From: Bacteroidota bacterium
Lineage (GTDB): Bacteria; Bacteroidota; Bacteroidia; Flavobacteriales; Flavobacteriaceae
Reading direction: 5' to 3'
Assembly: GCA_022601215.1 (NCBI GenBank)
Contig: JAHZIZ010000159.1
Coordinates: forward strand, 1 to 14,599
Length of the DNA stretch: 14,599 nt
Of the stretch, positions 3,271 to 10,792 are shown in pieces. The first letter of the stretch is position 1, and every line of letters begins with the position of its first letter. Below the pieces are notes generated by a model. That model searched no databases. It was not told the origin of the DNA and saw only the letters and a program-made list of their open reading frames with translations. The position numbers and the translations under genes are program-made.

Positions 3271-3675
3271 ATGGACAACCCTCGCAACAATCTTGACACT
3301 TTTAGAATTCTTTATATTGTAAAAGGAATTCTCACACTCTTGTTTTCACTATTCTTTTTGGCTTATGCCTTTTTCGGTGTTTTTATTAGCACGGTAGACT
3401 CCTCGGCCGCTGAAGCCCCTTTTAACATAAGTATCCTATTTGGAATAATTGGAGGAATTGGTTTTTTGTTCACGGCAATCTTTGGAATCCTCACCTTATT
3501 AGCTGCGAAGTATATAAAAGAAACCCGCAATTACAATTTCATCTTTGTGATTGCAGTCCTAAATTGCCTTACTGGAGTTCTTGGGATATTACTGGGTGTT
3601 TTTACATTTATTGAGCTTACAAAGCCTGAAGTCAAAATGCTATTCAATCAAACAGCTACTCCAGCCACAGTTTAA
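3271..3675 (+). CDS. Small three-helix membrane protein, unknown function
   Basis: This 134-residue protein is not recognised as a named family. It has three long hydrophobic segments, at about residues 13-40, 53-79 and 88-115, with a polar linker EAPF after the first and KYIKETRNYN between the second and third. The short tail is Thr-rich. It has no catalytic motif. The last 20 bases overlap the 3' end of the convergent LytTR regulator gene, so the two transcripts must be antisense at their ends. It has no obvious functional link to either neighbour. Confidence 0.72.
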   Translation: MDNPRNNLDTFRILYIVKGILTLLFSLFFLAYAFFGVFISTVDSSAAEAPFNISILFGIIGGIGFLFTAIFGILTLLAAKYIKETRNYNFIFVIAVLNCLTGVLGILLGVFTFIELTKPEVKMLFNQTATPATV

Positions 3676-4411
3676 AATCCTTTACACGCTCTCTTGCCAC
3701 AATTACCTCTTGTTCTTTATAGGAATTAAGCTTGAGTTGTAATCGACTATTAGTGTAACTAATAATATCTCTAATGGCATTCACATTCACATAAAACTTA
3801 CGGTTGATCCTAAAGAAGGTTTCGGGAGATATCTCTCCTTCCAATTGCTCTAAGGTAGTATCTAACAAATAATCTCGTCCGTCGATAGTATGTGCATAAG
3901 TTCCTTTGTTTTCACTATAAAAGCATTCTATTTCATCCACTGGAATCATTTTTATATGTTGGCCAATCTTCGTGGTAAAACGTTTTTTGTATTCTCGTGA
4001 AACTGGGTTGGTTAACAGTTTTTTAATATCGTCAAAATTAAGTTGAACATTCTGTCCCTGAGGAGCGCGTGATTTGTATTTAACAACAGCAGCTTCAAGT
4101 TCCTCTTCATCTATCGGTTTTAGTAGATAATCAATACTATTTAACTTAAAAGCTTGTAAGGCATATTCATCAAACGCAGTGGTAAAAATGATTGCGCTCT
4201 GGATATCGACTTCTTCAAAAATTTCAAATGAAAGTCCATCACTTAATTGAATATCTAAAAAAATAAGGTCGGGATGTTGGTTATTAGCAAACCAATTTAC
4301 AGATTCTTCTACGCTGTGAAGCATTTGGTCCACATGGACCTCTAAACGTTCTAGCATGCGCTGTAAACGTCTTGCAGAAGGTTTCTCGTCTTCGATAATT
4401 AGAACATTCAT
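3656..4411 (-). CDS. LytTR-family response regulator (REC-LytTR)
   Basis: This 251-residue two-component regulator has a receiver domain at 1-115 with the acidic pair Glu7/Asp8, phosphoacceptor Asp53 (LIFLDIQLSDG) and conserved Lys98 (YLLKPID). A LytTR DNA-binding domain follows at about 144-248 (IKMIPVDEIECFYSENKGTY, TFFRINRKFYVNVNAI, and the tail VARERVKDFKLWLE). LytTR domains bind pairs of roughly 9-bp direct repeats about 12 bases apart. Three such repeats occur in this window (5810-5839, 8438-8467, 10721-10750) and are its probable targets. It is the last gene of the 2TM run, 31 bases after the preceding stop. Its cognate kinase is almost certainly the His_kinase protein at 5846-7177. 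All key phosphorylation residues are present. Confidence 0.95.
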   Translation of the reverse strand: MNVLIIEDEKPSARRLQRMLERLEVHVDQMLHSVEESVNWFANNQHPDLIFLDIQLSDGLSFEIFEEVDIQSAIIFTTAFDEYALQAFKLNSIDYLLKPIDEEELEAAVVKYKSRAPQGQNVQLNFDDIKKLLTNPVSREYKKRFTTKIGQHIKMIPVDEIECFYSENKGTYAHTIDGRDYLLDTTLEQLEGEISPETFFRINRKFYVNVNAIRDIISYTNSRLQLKLNSYKEQEVIVARERVKDFKLWLE

Positions 4412-4442: not shown

Positions 4443-4769
4443 TTAAAAGCGTGTGGTATTTTTGAAATCCTCTTCTTCCTGATCCATGAATTCTTTCAGT
4501 TTTCGTTCTTCCCAATTTTTAAAGAAGGTAAAACTATTTTTAAAAACATGTAAGCCATGTCCTAAGAGGCCAATTCCCCAGAAAAATGGGGTTAGAAAGA
4601 AACCAATGTTTAGACTTCGACCTAAAAAATCTCCATCGTACAAACCCAAATGCCCGAGCATTAATAATACATTCACAACGAAATATATCGTCGCATGCCA
4701 ATAAAACCCTTTTATATCTTCTACCTTTTTACGGGCTCGTTCGTATTTATCTTTATCAAAATAATCCAT
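4443..4769 (-). CDS. Stand-alone 2TM-domain protein (copy D)
   Basis: This 108-residue protein consists almost wholly of one 2TM domain, a flavobacterial domain of unknown function in which two transmembrane helices are joined by a short linker. The order is a basic amphipathic N-terminal helix (YERARKKVEDIKGFY), TM1 at about 27-45, a linker (YDGDFLGRSL), TM2 at about 56-76 (FFWGIGLLGHGLHVF), and the conserved tail KNWEERKLKEFMDQEEE. Both family His residues are present, His25 (KGFYWH) and His71 (GHG). The linker is longer than in copy A, as it also is in copy C, so C and D form one subtype. It lies 29 bases after copy C and 31 bases before the regulator gene. A regulatory membrane partner of the kinase is inferred. 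Confidence 0.88.
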   Translation of the reverse strand: MDYFDKDKYERARKKVEDIKGFYWHATIYFVVNVLLMLGHLGLYDGDFLGRSLNIGFFLTPFFWGIGLLGHGLHVFKNSFTFFKNWEERKLKEFMDQEEEDFKNTTRF

Positions 4770-4798: not shown

Positions 4799-5134
4799 CT
4801 ACTTTTCCTTTTCCATAATTTCTTGAATCTTCTTATCCTCCCACTTTTTGAATACTCTAACATTATATACCTTAAAACCATGAATAGCTAATCCAAAAAA
4901 CCATAAAACTGGGGTAATAAAAGTATTCCAGTTTAACCAGTTATTAAAACCCTCATCATCACTTACAATACCTAAGCTTGGCAGTATTAAAAAACGAGAT
5001 ATTAACAAGCCTACATTTATAATAAGAAAGACCAAAATGTGACCATAAAAGCCTTTAATTTGTTTGACTTGTTTCTTTGCTCTGTTGTATTTTTCGTAAC
5101 GGTCTGTATTCACTTCGTTCTGTATCAGTTCCAT
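4799..5134 (-). CDS. Stand-alone 2TM-domain protein (copy C)
   Basis: This 111-residue 2TM-domain protein starts inside the end of copy B (10-base overlap), which suggests translational coupling. It has a basic helix YNRAKKQVKQIKGFYGH, TM1 at about 33-53, an unusually long polar linker at 54-70 (SDDEGFNNWLNWN), TM2 at about 71-91 (PVLWFFGLAIHGFKVY), and the tail KKWEDKKIQEIMEKEK. His32 and His85 are the equivalents of the conserved pair. The TM2 motif reads WFFGLAIHG where the others have GWGxG. The function is unknown. It should form a membrane hairpin with both ends in the cytoplasm. Confidence 0.88.
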   Translation of the reverse strand: MELIQNEVNTDRYEKYNRAKKQVKQIKGFYGHILVFLIINVGLLISRFLILPSLGIVSDDEGFNNWLNWNTFITPVLWFFGLAIHGFKVYNVRVFKKWEDKKIQEIMEKEK

Positions 5135-5430
5135 TTTGTTGTGTTTTGCTCTTCTTCATCCATTAACTCTTTTATCTTACGTTCTTCCCAATTTTTGTTC
5201 ATAAAAGGCGTCCATTTATAGGCCTTTGCAGCTTGAAAAACCAGGCCAATTCCCCATCCAAAAGCTGCCCATAAAAACCACATATATCTCCACTCATTGG
5301 TATAGTAATTTAAGCCTCCTAAAAAACAAATGAATACGATATAAAACAAAAGGCTTGTGTAAAACTTCTTAATCTCGGCTACCTGCTCTTTGGCACGTAA
5401 ATATTTATTCTCTTTACTATCTAATTCCAT
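5125..5430 (-). CDS. Stand-alone 2TM-domain protein (copy B, lacks both His)
   Basis: This 101-residue 2TM-domain protein has a basic helix (YLRAKEQVAEIKKFY), TM1 at about 27-45, linker NEWRYM, TM2 at about 52-70 (FGWGIGLVFQAAKAY), and the best-conserved form of the tail (NKNWEERKIKELMDEEE). It keeps the GWGIG glycine motif. However, KGFYxH reads KKFYTS (Ser26) and the TM2 GHA reads FQA (Gln66). Both His residues shared by the other four domains are therefore missing here. It starts 19 bases after copy A and overlaps copy C by 10 bases. A structural or inhibitory partner of the His-containing copies is one possibility, by inference only. Confidence 0.88.
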   Translation of the reverse strand: MELDSKENKYLRAKEQVAEIKKFYTSLLFYIVFICFLGGLNYYTNEWRYMWFLWAAFGWGIGLVFQAAKAYKWTPFMNKNWEERKIKELMDEEEQNTTKWN

Positions 5431-5449: not shown

Positions 5450-5743
5450 TTAAAATGAGTGGCTATCTTCGTCCATCAATTCTTTAATTTTTCTTGACTC
5501 CCAATCTTTACCGAAAAAAATATTGAATTGAAAGGTATCCGCCGCATGCCCTAAAACTCCTAAGCCCCATCCTGCAATTGGAAAAATGGCCCAAGGATAA
5601 CTTGTACTTTGCATATTTAACCATATAAAGACAAATACAAAAACGGTATAGATCGTTGCATGTGTATAAAAGCCTTTTAGCTTTTCAACCTGTTCTTTTG
5701 CTTTAGCATATCGCTGTTCTCGAGTGTTTTCTGAAAAATTCAT
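5450..5743 (-). CDS. Stand-alone 2TM-domain protein (copy A, first of array)
   Basis: This 97-residue protein is one 2TM domain. It has a basic helix (RYAKAKEQVEKLKGFYTH), TM1 at about 29-44, a short linker (QSTSYP), TM2 at about 50-68 (FPIAGWGLGVLGHAADTF), and the tail GKDWESRKIKELMDED. The conserved His residues are 28 and 66. It is the closest of the four to the C-terminal domain of the kinase: the linkers have equal length and the stretches PWA-FP, GWG-GV-GHA and GKDWE-RKI-ELMD are shared. The gene probably arose from that domain or the reverse. It is the first gene of a four-copy run ending with the regulator, and a LytTR-type direct repeat and promoter lie directly upstream. Confidence 0.9.
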   Translation of the reverse strand: MNFSENTREQRYAKAKEQVEKLKGFYTHATIYTVFVFVFIWLNMQSTSYPWAIFPIAGWGLGVLGHAADTFQFNIFFGKDWESRKIKELMDEDSHSF

Positions 5744-5768: not shown

Positions 5769-5800
5769 TAAAAGTAGTCGCTATGTGCTTCTTGTTACAA
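5769..5800 (-). promoter_or_regulatory. Promoter of the 2TM-regulator operon
   Basis: Reading the - strand, TTG (5800-5798) is followed after 21 bases by TACTTTTA (5776-5769), one mismatch from the flavobacterial -7 consensus TAnnTTTG. The ATG of copy A is 25 bases downstream. The -7 box starts 33 bases from the edge of the direct repeat at 5810-5839, the same distance as at the two related promoters in this window. Confidence 0.6.
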
Positions 5801-5809
5801 TCATACTTA

Positions 5810-5839
5810 CTGAAGTGTCCAAAACAAATGATGAACTGT
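5810..5839 (-). promoter_or_regulatory. Putative LytTR site 1 (autoregulatory)
   Basis: On the - strand, ACAGTTCAT (5839-5831), 12 bases, then ACACTTCAG (5818-5810). Seven of nine positions agree. Each half also agrees at seven of nine positions with the 9-mer ACAGTTAAG recognised by AgrA, the best-known LytTR protein, whose sites have the same 12-base spacing. It lies between the kinase stop and copy A, upstream of a recognisable promoter, so it should control the 2TM array and the regulator itself. Confidence 0.72.
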
Positions 5840-5845
5840 ATAAAA

Positions 5846-7177
5846 CTAGTCTTTATCTTTATCCATGAGCTCTCTAATCTTTCTCGCTTCCCAATCTTTT
5901 CCTAGTAAAGGATTATAATTAAACGTCTCCATCGCGTGACCTGCAACTCCAAATCCCCAACCTACGATAGGAAACAATGCCCAAGGAAATCCTGTACTAA
6001 TTACATTCAGATAGATAAAAACAAGAACCATAACACAATAAATACCAAAGTGAATATAGAAGCCTTTTAACGCCTCCACCTTCTTCTTGGCCAGCTCATA
6101 TTTTTTAGCAGATATATATTCTTTCTGTGTTTCCTTTACAACAGTAACATGAGTAGTTAGCATAGGAATCGAGACAGAAAATGTTCGTTCGTCCTGATAA
6201 ATTTTCATTGGACGGTCGGTTATAATGCCGTACCGTTGTCTAATATTTTGAAGTCCAACACCGCTGCTTTTTTTAAGAACTTTTTTCGGCTGTATATTAT
6301 TCACAACCATCAAATTTCCATCCTCCTCTTTAATACTAATATGCAGTTTTTTTGAAGGAGTTACCTGATTGTGCTTTACCGCATTCTCTAATAACAATTG
6401 TAACGATAGGGGAACCACCCTTGCTTCCAAATTGCTAACAGTCTCAGGTACAGTAAAGACAATACTATCTTCAAAACGCATCTTAATTAGCGACATGTAT
6501 AACTTAGCAAATTTTAACTCCTCAGCTACTGTTACTAACTCTTTGTTCTTTTGCTCCAACACATATCGATATACTTTAGACAGCGCCGTGGTAAATCGTG
6601 TAGCAGCTTCAGGATTTTCTTCTATAAGACTGGTAAGTACATTTAAGCTATTGAATAAGAAATGTGGATCTAGTTGATTCTTTAAGGCATCAAATTGGGC
6701 GGAAGCAGTCTTCGCAATTATCTTTTGCTCCTTTACTTTATTTTCCTGTTTGTATCGATAGAAATAAATGGCATAGAATATCGCAGTGATCACCATGGAT
6801 ATAATAAAACTCCCATAGTAGTGTTCTATTCGTTCCGTGCCAATAAAATCGGTAATAGAAGTATCTTGAATAACCACCTTAGAAAAAAGATGAAGGAGGA
6901 ACAAAGCCACAACGGTAACTATCATTCCTCCAAAAATTCCCTTTAATAAGTTTTGTAGCTTGAACAATTTACTACCATACCTTTTAATAAGATAATTGAT
7001 TAAAAGCATATTGGCCATGTAAAGAACAATAGAATATAACTGATTGTATCCAAAGACAATTAAAATTTCCTTGCCAGTGTCATAGCTATACCCATTAAGA
7101 TATTGAATGACTCCAATTACAATAAATATTAGCACCCCTATAAAAAATGCTCTCCAAAGTTCTTTAAGTATCCGCAT
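5846..7177 (-). CDS. LytS-like histidine kinase with a C-terminal 2TM domain
   Basis: This 443-residue sensor kinase has four hydrophobic segments at about 9-27, 39-64, 81-98 and 123-141, then a coiled linker and a His_kinase domain. QLDPHFLFNSLN carries phosphoacceptor His172, LLLENAVKHN (261-270) contains the ATP-binding Asn265, and GVGLQNIRQRYG (306-317) is the glycine box. Kinases of this LytS/YehU-type family phosphorylate LytTR regulators such as the one at 3656-4411. After the catalytic part (about residue 342), residues 355-440 add a complete 2TM domain (KGFYIH with His376, GWGFGVAGHA with His414, GKDWEARKIRELMDKD). This returns the chain to the membrane after the kinase core, an unusual place for a sensor. 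Its ATG follows the TPR gene stop by one base. Confidence 0.95.
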   Translation of the reverse strand: MRILKELWRAFFIGVLIFIVIGVIQYLNGYSYDTGKEILIVFGYNQLYSIVLYMANMLLINYLIKRYGSKLFKLQNLLKGIFGGMIVTVVALFLLHLFSKVVIQDTSITDFIGTERIEHYYGSFIISMVITAIFYAIYFYRYKQENKVKEQKIIAKTASAQFDALKNQLDPHFLFNSLNVLTSLIEENPEAATRFTTALSKVYRYVLEQKNKELVTVAEELKFAKLYMSLIKMRFEDSIVFTVPETVSNLEARVVPLSLQLLLENAVKHNQVTPSKKLHISIKEEDGNLMVVNNIQPKKVLKKSSGVGLQNIRQRYGIITDRPMKIYQDERTFSVSIPMLTTHVTVVKETQKEYISAKKYELAKKKVEALKGFYIHFGIYCVMVLVFIYLNVISTGFPWALFPIVGWGFGVAGHAMETFNYNPLLGKDWEARKIRELMDKDKD

Positions 7178-7178
7178 A

Positions 7179-7805
7179 TTACTCTCCGCAGTTTTCTGCT
7201 AAGGCTTGCTTGGCATAATCGCCTCCACCTTTTGGGTGAAATGGGCCTTTTGGTTCATAAGTTTCATATAGTGCCGCTGCCTTTTTCAAGTCCTCGCAAA
7301 AGGAACTGGTATCTTGTCCAAAAAAACGTGCAGTTCCCATATCCCATTCTACTTTTCCGAAAGCCACTCTAGGGTTGCTAGGGTCAAGTTTATGGGCTTC
7401 AGAATATAGCTGAGCCACTTTCTGAGAATAGGTCATGCCGTATTTGGCACCGTCAAAAACAATCCAAGCGGTATATAGTTGTGCTTGTATTACTAAAATC
7501 TCAGCATTGTCTTTAGAAATGGCTTTCGCATCATTAATAAAATCTTGAGCTTTCTTTAACTGCGCAGTAAGCTTCGTTTCATCCTTCTCATTGAAGCTGT
7601 ACAGTACATTTATTTGGGCAACATAAAATGGAGGCAACCAATTGTCTGGTTCGGCTTGCGAAATCCGCTCAAATAAGTTCGCTGCTTCCCATTGTTTCCC
7701 TTCTTGCCAAAGCTCAAAGCCTTTCGTCATTCCCTTTTCGAACTTTGATTGACTAAATCCTGTAAAGGAGATTAAGGTAATGGCGATGATAAATAATTGT
7801 TTCAT
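7179..7805 (-). CDS. Secreted TPR protein
   Basis: This 208-residue protein starts with a Sec signal peptide (MKQLFIIAITLISFTGFSQS, cleavage probably before or after Gln19), so it should be periplasmic or envelope-bound. The body is helical with TPR-like units. The clearest are at about 25-60 (GFELWQEGKQWEAANLFERISQ, AEPDN) and 115-150 (YSQKVAQLYSEAHKLDPSNP). The C-terminal part contains two Cys (the first in FCEDLKKAAALYETY, the second in ENCGE). TPR units mediate protein contacts, and no enzyme motif is seen. An ATG at 7850 would add 15 residues ahead of a perfect signal peptide, so 7805 is chosen. It is translationally adjacent to the kinase, suggesting an accessory or sensory partner of the receptor-kinase system. 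Confidence 0.85.
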   Translation of the reverse strand: MKQLFIIAITLISFTGFSQSKFEKGMTKGFELWQEGKQWEAANLFERISQAEPDNWLPPFYVAQINVLYSFNEKDETKLTAQLKKAQDFINDAKAISKDNAEILVIQAQLYTAWIVFDGAKYGMTYSQKVAQLYSEAHKLDPSNPRVAFGKVEWDMGTARFFGQDTSSFCEDLKKAAALYETYEPKGPFHPKGGGDYAKQALAENCGE

Positions 7806-7833
7806 AATACTTGTTTTATGAGTTATAAAGTTA

Positions 7834-7947
7834 TTAAGATAAAAGGACATTTAATCCTATTCCTGTAAATAGTAATGCAAGACTCATCCGCATGAGTACT
7901 TTAAACGATAGATTTCTTCCTTGTAATTTTAATAGTATACCCAGCAC
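7834..7947 (-). CDS. Possible 37-residue membrane peptide or gene remnant
   Basis: This short frame starts at GTG 7947, ten bases after the DUF2141 stop, and ends at TAA 7834, 28 bases before the TPR gene. It would read LGILLKLQGRNLSFK then VLMRMSLALLFTGIGLNVLLS, a hydrophobic peptide with a basic middle. It fills the only sizeable gap in an otherwise packed operon. A TAG at 7956-7954 blocks any upstream start, and no ATG precedes the hydrophobic part except an internal one. It may be a real single-helix peptide or the C-terminal scrap of a lost membrane gene. It is not recognised as a family. Confidence 0.3.
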   Translation of the reverse strand: MLGILLKLQGRNLSFKVLMRMSLALLFTGIGLNVLLS

Positions 7948-7957
7948 AGCGATCTAT

Positions 7958-8371
7958 TTAGAGGTTTATATCCATTTTTTTTAGCGCTCCATTTTTGACC
8001 TCGAAACGTGCATCTTCCCATTTAGGTGGCCCAAAGAAACCTTTGGCTCCATTAGAACATCCGTATGGTTCTGCTGGAACCATACCCATCATCATATTGA
8101 GTTTCCCATTACTGTCCTTGTCATGATAACAAGAAATGGCATACACACCATCTGGTATTTCGGTAAAAGTTACTTTTGCTTTCTTGTTTGTGATTTCAGA
8201 AGATAGTGAGACATAGGTAGCAGCTAACCACTTAGCTTCTTCATTATATAACCCTACCATCACTTTACCATCATTATTCTTAAACTCATTAATTGAAACT
8301 TCAATAGTGTTCTGCGCTTGGGCAAAAATTCCAGTAATTAAAAAGACCAAATACACGAATACGTTTTGCAT
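7958..8371 (-). CDS. Secreted DUF2141 protein
   Basis: This 137-residue protein begins with a signal peptide (MQNVFVYLVFLITGIFAQAQ, cleavage near AQA-Q) and continues as a DUF2141 domain. The family marks are GKVMVGLYN, the central PDGVYAISCYHDKDSNGKLN with the DxDxNGKLN loop, and EPYGCSNGAKGFFGPPKWEDARF. The predicted fold is a beta-sandwich exposed outside the cytoplasm. The family function is not known. The Asp/Asn-rich loop resembles a Ca2+-binding loop, which is inference. It is the first gene of the operon leading to the TPR protein and kinase, with a LytTR-type repeat and a promoter upstream. Confidence 0.92.
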   Translation of the reverse strand: MQNVFVYLVFLITGIFAQAQNTIEVSINEFKNNDGKVMVGLYNEEAKWLAATYVSLSSEITNKKAKVTFTEIPDGVYAISCYHDKDSNGKLNMMMGMVPAEPYGCSNGAKGFFGPPKWEDARFEVKNGALKKMDINL

Positions 8372-8396
8372 GATTGTTGTTTTATAATTGATACTT

Positions 8397-8428
8397 CAAA
8401 TATCTATCGTAAGACCCTTTAAAAGAAA
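8397..8428 (-). promoter_or_regulatory. Promoter of the DUF2141-TPR-kinase operon
   Basis: On the - strand, GATATTTG (8404-8397) is one base from the TAnnTTTG -7 consensus. TTT stands at 8428-8426, where the 2TM promoter has TTG, again 21 bases away. The start codon is 25 bases downstream. The -7 box and leader (TTTGAAGTATCAATTA, 8400-8385) match the TonB receptor leader at 15 of 16 bases. The poor -33 element fits an activator-dependent promoter. Confidence 0.55.
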
Positions 8429-8437
8429 ACAGTCTTA

Positions 8438-8467
8438 CCCAATTGTCATTTTTGGCGACTCAACTGT
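8438..8467 (-). promoter_or_regulatory. Putative LytTR site 2
   Basis: On the - strand, ACAGTTGAG (8467-8459), 12 bases, then ACAATTGGG (8446-8438). Seven of nine positions agree between the halves. The distal half touches the last base of the TonB receptor stop codon. The proximal edge is 33 bases from the -7 box, as at sites 1 and 3, so the regulator would contact RNA polymerase in the same geometry. Confidence 0.7.
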
Positions 8468-10653
8468 TACAGAGTATCTAATTGATTGTCCGTTCCGTCT
8501 TCACTTATGGTCCAAAAGAAGCCAACAAAAAAGAACTGATCAGCAGCAGGACGTAACGCTCTTCTATTAAAATTCCCCATGGTATTCGGAGTGTTCGCAT
8601 ACTGGTATCCGTTAATATTGTTGAATCCAAAAGCATTGTTAACTGAGAAATACAATATTTTTTGTTGTGATATTAAATACGCCCAATTGAAACTTACGCT
8701 ATTGAATCCTTTAGTTTTATCTTGGAGAAAACCTTGATCATTAGGGTTGGTGAAAGCGCGACCACTTCCGTACTGATAACTCACTCCTACCTGGCTTTTC
8801 CAGTCGGTTATAAACCATTTTCCCACTACAGATAGGTTATGCGAGTTCGCAAAAGAAGGAGTTGTACTTATTGGGTAATTTCTGTATTTCCGTTCACTAT
8901 CCAAATATGAATAACTTATCCAATAGTCTACATTCTTAATAGATTCATTATCTCTGAAGAAGAAATCTAACCCCTGCGCATAACCGTCTCCATCATTGGT
9001 AAAATTACTATCAAAAAAAGGATCTTGGGTATCGAACATGACGAGACTTTTATATTCTTTTCTATATGCCTCAGCTCTAAATATTCTATTGTTCTTTGAG
9101 TACTGATAGTTTAAAATATAATGTTGTGTTTTCTGTGGGTCTAGGTCTTGTTGAAACTTTAAAATATCATTCAAAGGTTGCTGATAAAAATCTCCGTAAG
9201 CTAATGACACTTGGCTCCCTTTTCCAGTTTTATAGGCCACAGAAGCTCTTGGTGATATGGTAAATTTATCAAACAACTGGCTGTGTTCGGCACGTAGCCC
9301 TACCTTCATTGCAAACTTTCTAGAAAAAATGAGATCGGCTTCTGAAAATACCGCTGTAATATTGTTATTAAAGCCATAACTATCTATAGAAGTATCTATA
9401 AAAGGATTATCGAAAGATTCATTAAAATCGGTTAAAAACTGTTCAGCTCCAAAGTTTAACTTTACTCGATTACTAAAACGCTTGCGAAACTTAAGCTTAA
9501 AATGAGCGGAATTTTCAATATTATCAATCTCATTGTCAAGAAAACCAACTTTGTTATTACTATGCGTAAAACTTCCTCCTGCCTGTATCTTCCAGCTATC
9601 TCCCAAAGTACCACTATAGCTTGTATTTGTGTATAAATTTTTATTGTTAAGTTTAAAATTAACACCCTCCGGAATATTGATATCTTCTTGAGTCAACTCA
9701 AAATTAGTAGCGTCAAAAGCTGCATACATCTTAAACAAACCTTTATCAAACTTTCTTCTAAAAACAGTTTCTCCAGCAAAAGCTTGGAAAGGTTTTTCCC
9801 AATCATTCCTATCTGGAAAAGCAGCGATGTACGGAGCCAGGTTGATATAACTCGTATTAAAGCTTAAAGAACTCTTTTCCCATTTTTGTGTATTACCAAT
9901 GCTTCCTCCAACACTCATTATAGCAATATCCGTTTTTTCTTGAGTTGGTTCATCTATAGTATTTAGGAGTAGTACCGAAGACAAAGCTTGTCCATACTCT
10001 GCGGAGTAACCCCCAGTAGAGAATGTAATACCGTCGAATAAAAATGGGCTATATCGTCCACGAGTAGGAATATTATTAGTGCTAGGCGTATAAGGTGTAA
10101 ATACACGAATACCATCTATAAAAATTTGTGTTTCTCCTGCATCACCGCCACGCACAAACAAACGACCATCTTCAGCAACCGTTGTTGTTCCCGGCAAGGT
10201 CTGTAAAGCTCCCACAAAATCGCCTAAAGCACTTGCAGTGGTAACAACATCTAAGGGTTTTAGTACAGAAACTTTGCTGTTGTCACCTGCTTCAAAAGTT
10301 CCTGCAGATAGGACTACGGCATCTAAAGAATTTACATCCTCCCTTAGTGTAACGGTTAGACCATTTAACTGAGTAACATCCGCGGCCATCATAAACTCTT
10401 CATACGTCACATAAGAGACGATTAATGTTTGTACCCCTTCTTCTCCTGTGGAGAATGAAAACTGACCCTGCGCATTGGTAGAGCCCCCATCATAGGTTCC
10501 ATCTAGATAAACGTTAGCTCCTTCAATAGGCGTCCCATTTTTCTGAGTCACTGTTCCTGAAATTTCCGTTTGGGCGAAAGTATCATAGGGAATAGTGGTC
10601 AATAGAAAAGTGAGAATGACAGCAAGAATTAGATGTGGTCTAGAAAGATTCAT
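8467..10653 (-). CDS. TonB-dependent outer-membrane receptor
   Basis: This 728-residue protein has a signal peptide (about 1-28, ending DTFAQ), then a CarboxypepD_reg-like domain at about 30-110 (ISGTVTQKNGTPIEGANVYL, with GGSTNAQGQFSF). A plug domain follows at about 125-235 (LGDFVGALQTLPGTTTVAED, LFVRGGDAGETQIFIDGIRV, GGYSAEYGQALSSVLLLNT), then a beta-barrel to the end. It should carry a substrate across the outer membrane with energy from TonB-ExbBD. No SusD-like partner follows, so it is not a SusCD polysaccharide transporter. The barrel ends FFVGFFWTI but a 12-residue acidic tail (SEDGTDNQLDTL) follows the usual aromatic C-terminus. The promoter carries LytTR site 3. The substrate is unknown. 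Confidence 0.95.
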   Translation of the reverse strand: MNLSRPHLILAVILTFLLTTIPYDTFAQTEISGTVTQKNGTPIEGANVYLDGTYDGGSTNAQGQFSFSTGEEGVQTLIVSYVTYEEFMMAADVTQLNGLTVTLREDVNSLDAVVLSAGTFEAGDNSKVSVLKPLDVVTTASALGDFVGALQTLPGTTTVAEDGRLFVRGGDAGETQIFIDGIRVFTPYTPSTNNIPTRGRYSPFLFDGITFSTGGYSAEYGQALSSVLLLNTIDEPTQEKTDIAIMSVGGSIGNTQKWEKSSLSFNTSYINLAPYIAAFPDRNDWEKPFQAFAGETVFRRKFDKGLFKMYAAFDATNFELTQEDINIPEGVNFKLNNKNLYTNTSYSGTLGDSWKIQAGGSFTHSNNKVGFLDNEIDNIENSAHFKLKFRKRFSNRVKLNFGAEQFLTDFNESFDNPFIDTSIDSYGFNNNITAVFSEADLIFSRKFAMKVGLRAEHSQLFDKFTISPRASVAYKTGKGSQVSLAYGDFYQQPLNDILKFQQDLDPQKTQHYILNYQYSKNNRIFRAEAYRKEYKSLVMFDTQDPFFDSNFTNDGDGYAQGLDFFFRDNESIKNVDYWISYSYLDSERKYRNYPISTTPSFANSHNLSVVGKWFITDWKSQVGVSYQYGSGRAFTNPNDQGFLQDKTKGFNSVSFNWAYLISQQKILYFSVNNAFGFNNINGYQYANTPNTMGNFNRRALRPAADQFFFVGFFWTISEDGTDNQLDTL

Positions 10654-10679
10654 TTTTTGTTCGGTTTTAATTGATGCTT

Positions 10680-10711
10680 CAAAGATGTAGGCATTATGTC
10701 ATTTTCCTAAA
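10680..10711 (-). promoter_or_regulatory. Promoter of the TonB receptor gene
   Basis: On the - strand, CATCTTTG (10687-10680) differs from TAnnTTTG at one base, with TTT at 10711-10709 in the -33 position and 21 bases between. The leader TTTGAAGCATCAATTA (10683-10668) nearly repeats that of the DUF2141 gene. The ATG is 26 bases after the -7 box. Confidence 0.55.
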
Positions 10712-10720
10712 ATTAAAATG

Positions 10721-10750
10721 CTGAAATGTTATTTTAACTGACTCAATTGT
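10721..10750 (-). promoter_or_regulatory. Putative LytTR site 3
   Basis: On the - strand, ACAATTGAG (10750-10742), 12 bases, then ACATTTCAG (10729-10721). Seven of nine positions agree. The proximal edge is 33 bases from the receptor -7 box. The site is also 42 bases upstream of the divergent YdeI-like gene, whose possible -7 box TATCTTCA (10765-10772) is close enough that bound regulator could affect it as well. Confidence 0.7.
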
Positions 10751-10792
10751 AAAAAACAAAATAGTATCTTCACAAGACGAAACATTCTGGTT

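Follow-up and report, generated by a model that had tools for sequence, protein, structure and literature searches.

The stretch of DNA analysed here (the window, 14,599 nucleotides, contig C329 of a flavobacterial genome of 2.83 Mb that is 80% complete) carries on its minus strand a gene cluster in which three matching direct repeats are the candidate binding sites of a LytTR regulator encoded by the cluster itself. In the order of the minus strand, the genes code for a TonB-dependent-receptor-like protein with CarboxypepD_reg-like and Plug domains (8467..10653; PF13715, PF07715), a DUF2141 protein (7958..8371; PF09912), a TPR-like protein (7179..7850), a LytS-type histidine kinase with a C-terminal 2TM domain (5846..7177; PF06580, PF13239), four 2TM proteins (5450..5743, 5125..5430, 4799..5134, and 4443..4769; PF13239 in each) and a response regulator with REC and LytTR domains (3656..4411; PF00072 and PF04397, both above cut-off). 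A reading made earlier from the letters alone (the sequence-only reading) had already placed a LytTR regulator in the cluster, as these domain matches bear out, and it is also the source of the label TPR; for that protein, no Pfam family was found at E 0.001 and the only NCBIfam match, to LcrH/SycD, was sub-threshold, and operon homologues of it are present in many relatives. The gene at 5450..5743 is the first of a presumed 2TM operon with intergenic gaps of at most 31 bases, and because the regulator is the last gene of this operon, it is probably autoregulated from the 2TM promoter. Residues D8, D53, T78, and K98 of the regulator are invariant in 24 aligned sequences, and H172 and N265 of the kinase in 17. 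The combination of REC and LytTR domains with a LytS-type kinase encoded nearby is that of a LytTR-type two-component regulator, and we infer that this kinase is the cognate partner. By kinase identity, the nearest loci in a named collection that may omit very near records were those of a Flavobacteriaceae metagenome-assembled genome (71%), Altibacter sp. (70%), and Ulvibacter antarcticus (65%).

Each repeat consists of two 9-mers separated by 12 bases on the minus strand: ACAGTTCAT-N12-ACACTTCAG upstream of the 2TM-regulator operon (5810..5839), ACAGTTGAG-N12-ACAATTGGG upstream of the DUF2141-TPR-kinase genes (8438..8467), and ACAATTGAG-N12-ACATTTCAG upstream of the TonB-like gene (10721..10750). 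Their positions and strand had been given correctly in the sequence-only reading, and the fixed promoter geometry described there was recovered as well: in all three, 33 bases separate the repeat from a -7-like octamer on the same strand (TACTTTTA at 5769..5776, GATATTTG at 8397..8404, and CATCTTTG at 10680..10687, respectively), followed by 25, 25, and 26 bases to the start codon. The site at 5810-5839 begins 6 bases past the end of the kinase open reading frame (ORF), and that at 8438-8467 shares its first base with the end of the TonB stop codon. The scans were based on the pattern ACANTTSRK-N12-ACANTTSRK, with its reversed form as control where given; the three sites match it exactly, and nothing else in the window matches it with up to two mismatches. 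Shuffled versions of the window gave an expectation of 0.00 exact matches and, with up to two mismatches, a mean of 0.41, with three being reached in 1 of 200 shuffles; this is an unfair test since the pattern itself came from these sites, and the fair tests are those made out of sample. The TonB site is 42 bases (10751-10792) from the start of a divergent DUF1801 gene, such that the promoters of the TonB-like and DUF1801 genes may overlap.

The repeats are conserved at orthologues. Eighty named loci with a kinase orthologue, 1,567,076 bases altogether, were searched, and in 76 of them the operon strand carries a site with no more than one mismatch. With the 12-base spacer, exact matches numbered 56 on the operon strand vs. 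4 on the opposite strand, and matches with up to one mismatch 120 vs. 11, whereas spacers of 8-11 and 13-16 bases gave no exact match and at most 5 each with one mismatch allowed, and the reversed pattern gave 0 and 2. The box NANNTTTG, which played no part in choosing the 120 operon-strand sites, is found precisely at +33 for 109 of these, five other distances occurring once or twice each. When the repeat was taken together with a box at 32-34, allowing two mismatches, 77 of the 80 loci had a site, with 145 sites in total and 142 of these at 33. Considering regulon families only, a next gene lies within 400 bases of 142 of the 145 sites (kinase 34, TPR 33, 2TM 25, TonB 22, DUF2141 19, and nine more on the other strand), which leaves three without one. 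In the kinase loci of 29 relatives, where sites were counted with up to one mismatch, or up to two near an operon gene, every locus had at least one site with two mismatches or fewer among the matches listed, and the TonB genes of relatives also carry the site. The 56 sites listed for these 29 loci have NANNTTTG at +33 in 42 cases, TANNTTTA at +33 in six, a box at +34 in four, and no box in four. In two loci of a more distant family (L088 and L089), the half-sites read ACCGTTCRG or similar and the regulator is 46-47% identical; the box of the six sites listed there is at +33 in three, at +34 in two, and absent in one.

The sequence-only reading had asked for a scan of the whole genome for chance matches, and this returned only four exact matches in 2.83 Mb, three of them those of the window, and none for the reversed pattern. 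The fourth (contig C412; L004:1501-1530) is followed after 33 bases by CACATTTG and then by another DUF2141 gene, which codes for 147 aa; similar DUF2141 genes with the site are present in seven other genomes within the genus (L172, L173, L174, L175, L177, L178, and L180). A site with one mismatch (contig C315; L009:764-793) is followed at +33 by GAATTTTG and then by a gene for a 339-aa serine hydrolase of the beta-lactamase family, and a gene that resembles it, as judged by eye, has the site in another genus (L171).

The pattern plus NANNTTT, with up to one mismatch, was then searched in 60 genomes, the own genome and 59 relatives, and gave 99 matches vs. 3 for the reversed pattern, distributed over 33 of the genomes and with 45 matches within kinase loci. 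The genes downstream are for the most part TonB-like, DUF2141, TPR-kinase, or 2TM-regulator genes or, in other genera, DUF2807 genes. Nine of the 99 had first been set aside by eye as chance; the ORF test covered these nine off-locus matches, and all nine proved to lie inside ORFs. A kinase orthologue (E below 1e-80) was found in 30 of the 60 genomes, 27 of which have site matches, and the remaining three (G019, G040, and G053) carry the repeat with two mismatches and a box at +33. Among the other 30 genomes, six have matches (G031, G048, G038, G002, G006, and G014): those of G031 and G048 are inside ORFs, and G038 has one inside an ORF and one operon-linked site, next to a kinase without 2TM. 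Site presence thereby appears to track, largely, the presence of the kinase system, G014 being a clear exception. The fusion to 2TM may be dispensable to the system because the operon-linked kinase of another family (L209:2564-3592) has no Pfam 2TM domain.

Across the phylum (296 genomes, the own one included), 78 matches were found vs. 3 for the reversed pattern, in 28 of the 30 members of the family of the window and in 13 of the 266 others. Four of these 13, read in context, have the site at the operon of the regulator, in two other families of the class: in three genomes of family f22 it is upstream of TonB-TPR-kinase-regulator, and in G103 (family f21) upstream of a 120-aa protein, a kinase, and a regulator. 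The 120-aa protein resembles part of the 2TM kinase and is taken as a 2TM protein. The matches in the other nine genomes outside the family may be due to chance.

The profile of 109 sites reads T-ACA[AG]TTCA[TG]-CC...AAAA.[TC].-ACA[AG]TT[CG][GA]G-T, followed by a T-run, 20 bases, and [GC]ANNTTTG. Promoters of Bacteroidota have the consensus TTG at -33 and TAnnTTTG at -7, and the T-run, at site positions 40-43 (T in 98% at position 41), would occupy the expected position of the -33 element; the sites thus have the form of a pair of 9-bp direct repeats with a spacing of about 12 bp, placed immediately before the putative -33 position. The octamers of the sites begin with G or C in 67 of 69 cases, as against 25 of 170 for the other NANNTTTG boxes, collected from 819 upstream non-coding regions in those loci (Fisher 1.7e-35), and T is first in 99 of those 170. 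Over all 145 sites, the first base is G or C in 132, T in 11, and A in 2; the 2TM promoter of the window and of several members of the genus carries TACTTTTA instead. Most site promoters are one base off the consensus and therefore look like activator-dependent promoters.

The sequence-only reading had described a local regulon linking the TonB receptor, the DUF2141-TPR-kinase genes, and the 2TM operon. The links are supported by conserved sites at all three; the restriction to the locus is not, given that dispersed targets exist. We read in context 44 matches outside or at the edge of kinase loci (L004 among them), some of which represent the operon itself or, where a contig is split, the main operon (e.g., L176, L179, and L209), and confirmed the names of the target families with Pfam on representatives. 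Seventeen lie before DUF2141 genes, eight before TonB-like genes, one before a TPR gene, three before single other genes, 11 before DUF2807 genes, and one before an operon with DUF2807 as its second gene; for the last three there was no readable ORF, two of these being at contig ends. All 12 DUF2807 sites, which belong to other genera (L170, L182, L185, L189, L191, L194, L197, L199, L202, L205, L206, and L208), sit between a pspC-like gene and DUF2807, which suggests that an internal promoter splits this toast-rack gene pair. The pspC-like protein of L191 matches PF22571 and PF22744 and not the PspC domain itself.

This arrangement has precedents among LytTR proteins. AgrA of Staphylococcus aureus (agr P2/P3) shares the LytTR fold, a direct-repeat pair upstream, and off-optimum core promoters; its promoter-proximal repeats are centred near -60, at promoters with off-optimum spacing (PMC4227749). 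It differs from the present case in phylum, promoter type, partner kinase, and targets, and no quorum-sensing genes were seen in the cluster. The AgrA consensus, which we take to be ACAGTTAAG, is close to ACAGTTGAG. In Streptococcus mutans, the LytTR Regulatory Systems HdrRM and BrsRM use 9-bp repeats, mostly with a 12-bp spacer, just upstream of -35 for positive autoregulation (PMC6193735). Those systems combine a regulator with a membrane inhibitor, whereas here a REC domain and a histidine kinase are present, and for this reason we rejected membership in that group. The distance from the repeat to TATCTTTG in a LytTR operon of Bacteroides thetaiotaomicron adds up to 11+4+19=34 bases (Table 3, PMC6193735), close to the 33 found here, although the repeats in Bacteroides are 11-mers, are spaced by 11 bp, and differ in sequence. 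In the light of these three precedents, the geometry is a LytTR rule with a site sequence and a regulon of its own; the style of binding is already known for LytTR proteins, and the gene set would be what is new. No description of this regulon was found in the open-access literature searched, supplementary tables being outside its scope, and we do not claim that it is unpublished.

We consider it probable, at about 0.85, that the three repeats are the sites of the REC-LytTR activator of the cluster, serving the receptor gene, the DUF2141-TPR-kinase genes, the 2TM-regulator operon, and dispersed genes; the sites, their geometry and conservation, the gene families, and the co-occurrence are observed, and from these we infer that the regulator binds, is phosphorylated, and activates, as well as the structure of the operons and the signal from the envelope. 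The 2TM/LytS-type kinase (5846-7177) would probably phosphorylate the regulator encoded at 3656-4411, which would bind the three repeats with two LytTR domains on two 9-mers, 21 bp or two helical turns apart and hence on one face of the DNA. The centre of the bound pair would lie some 48 bp before the -7 octamer, next to the poor T-rich -33 element on its upstream side, and from there the regulator could activate RNA polymerase at a weak promoter whose -33 and -7 elements are both off consensus. Expression of the 2TM-regulator operon would then provide positive feedback, and the dispersed targets would be the second DUF2141 gene and the beta-lactamase-family gene in this genome and DUF2807 beside the pspC-like gene in other genera. 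In line with this assignment, among the matches listed there is no site with up to two mismatches on contig C115, which carries the paralogous pair of the own genome. In the regulator model, the LytTR part matches that of AgrA in the DNA complexes 3bs1 and 4xqj (template-modelling score, TM, 0.74-0.77 by target length). Taken at full length, the model is moderate (predicted local distance difference test 79.6, predicted TM 0.47), and full-length ComE ranks first with a TM of only 0.37; for this reason, we relied on the LytTR part only. A sequence search of the PDB with the regulator gave receiver-domain matches among the matches listed, and the fold search added the LytTR domain.

Several observations weigh against this assignment. 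Locus L118 (21.7 kb) has no site, and L131 and L137 have no site with a box, in loci where only 310 and 473 bases precede the kinase match. Sites are present in G002 and G006, two incomplete members of the same genus (82% and 76% complete), in which no regulator was found, and in G014 (99% complete; L206 and L207), in which neither a kinase nor a regulator orthologue was found, the latter searched at E 1e-30; the two sites of G014 are well formed and lie upstream of DUF2807 and DUF2141. None of the four DUF2807 genes of the own genome has a site with up to three mismatches and a box, and since its pspC-like/DUF2807 module is without a recognisable site, regulon membership varies. Many boxes of genus g49 begin with T, so that the G/C-first octamer is not universal. 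G103 has the site at the operon of a regulator 43% identical, and G015, G030, and G048, whose best regulator matches are 41-43% identical, have no non-coding site match, for which reason identity alone cannot separate orthologue from paralogue. Finally, the related genomes are non-independent samples.

The least improbable alternative, with roughly the weight of an outside chance, is that the regulator binds the repeats as a repressor or in a bifunctional role. For AgrA, repression is known at bsaA, where its site lies immediately past the promoter on the downstream side (PMC4227749); here, by contrast, the site lies before the -33 position without overlap with the -7 element, the off-consensus core elements fit a promoter that needs help, and the S. 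mutans direct repeats just upstream of -35 act positively (PMC6193735). A little less probable still is that the sites belong to another LytTR-family or other regulator elsewhere, the regulator of the cluster being merely one target. The own genome does have a paralogous kinase/regulator pair, on contig C115; LytTR systems can cross-regulate in S. mutans (PMC6193735); and G014 keeps its two sites with no regulator orthologue found. Against another regulator, the sites co-occur with the kinase in 27 of the 30 genomes that have it and are found at the operon of the regulator even in two other families. The absence of matches, or their position inside ORFs, in G015, G030, and G048 points the same way, weakly when taken alone, given the site in G103. 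Chance or a compositional pattern picked post hoc is so improbable that we rejected it on the scans of the 80 named loci, the 60 genomes, and the own genome: the degenerate pattern does come from the three sites themselves, and two-mismatch matches without a box are common in the own genome (82 vs. 55 reversed, mostly noise), but the out-of-sample matches in the own and other genomes keep the spacer, the distance, and the target families.

With the repeats read as activator sites of the cluster's regulator, a marine flavobacterial regulator appears to turn on a handful of envelope genes through a paired sequence at a near-constant distance from the promoter. The role of the regulon is likely an outer-membrane or envelope response, an idea based on the TonB-like protein, the presumably secreted DUF2141 protein, and the association with pspC/Toastrack. 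A wider proposal, which we hold tentatively and at somewhat less than even odds, is that of an old envelope-stress regulon of Bacteroidota, spread over several families, in which a LytS/LytTR pair would be modulated by feedback from small 2TM membrane proteins with a domain in common with the kinase. One rigid 33-bp geometry would there govern joint targets, namely a TonB-like outer-membrane protein, a secreted DUF2141 protein and, in many genera, DUF2807 beside the pspC-like gene. We know of no function for the TonB-like, DUF2141, DUF2807, and 2TM targets. The sites provide a testable regulon, with binding sites predicted to the base, for a two-component system of many Flavobacteriaceae, as well as a natural set of Bacteroidota promoters, probably activator-dependent, in which the distance from the activator to -7 is nearly fixed, useful for studies of activation in a phylum with unusual promoters.

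Two further comparisons concern the proteins. The BtsSR/YpdAB-type pairs combine a LytS-type kinase with a LytTR regulator, the same two protein families as here; presumably, they have no 2TM proteins and different targets, and the best NCBIfam models for the regulator score far below their cut-offs (BtsR, 102.1 vs. 246 bits; LytR, 98.5 vs. 375 bits). From the Lia/PSP modules (PspC and Toastrack DUF4097/DUF2154/DUF2807), the present system differs in that the module of the own genome is without the site and no LiaRS-type pair was seen in the cluster; the likeness lies in the site between the pspC-like gene and DUF2807 in several other genera, and Toastrack has been linked to membrane signalling, sometimes with LytTR (PMC11237479).

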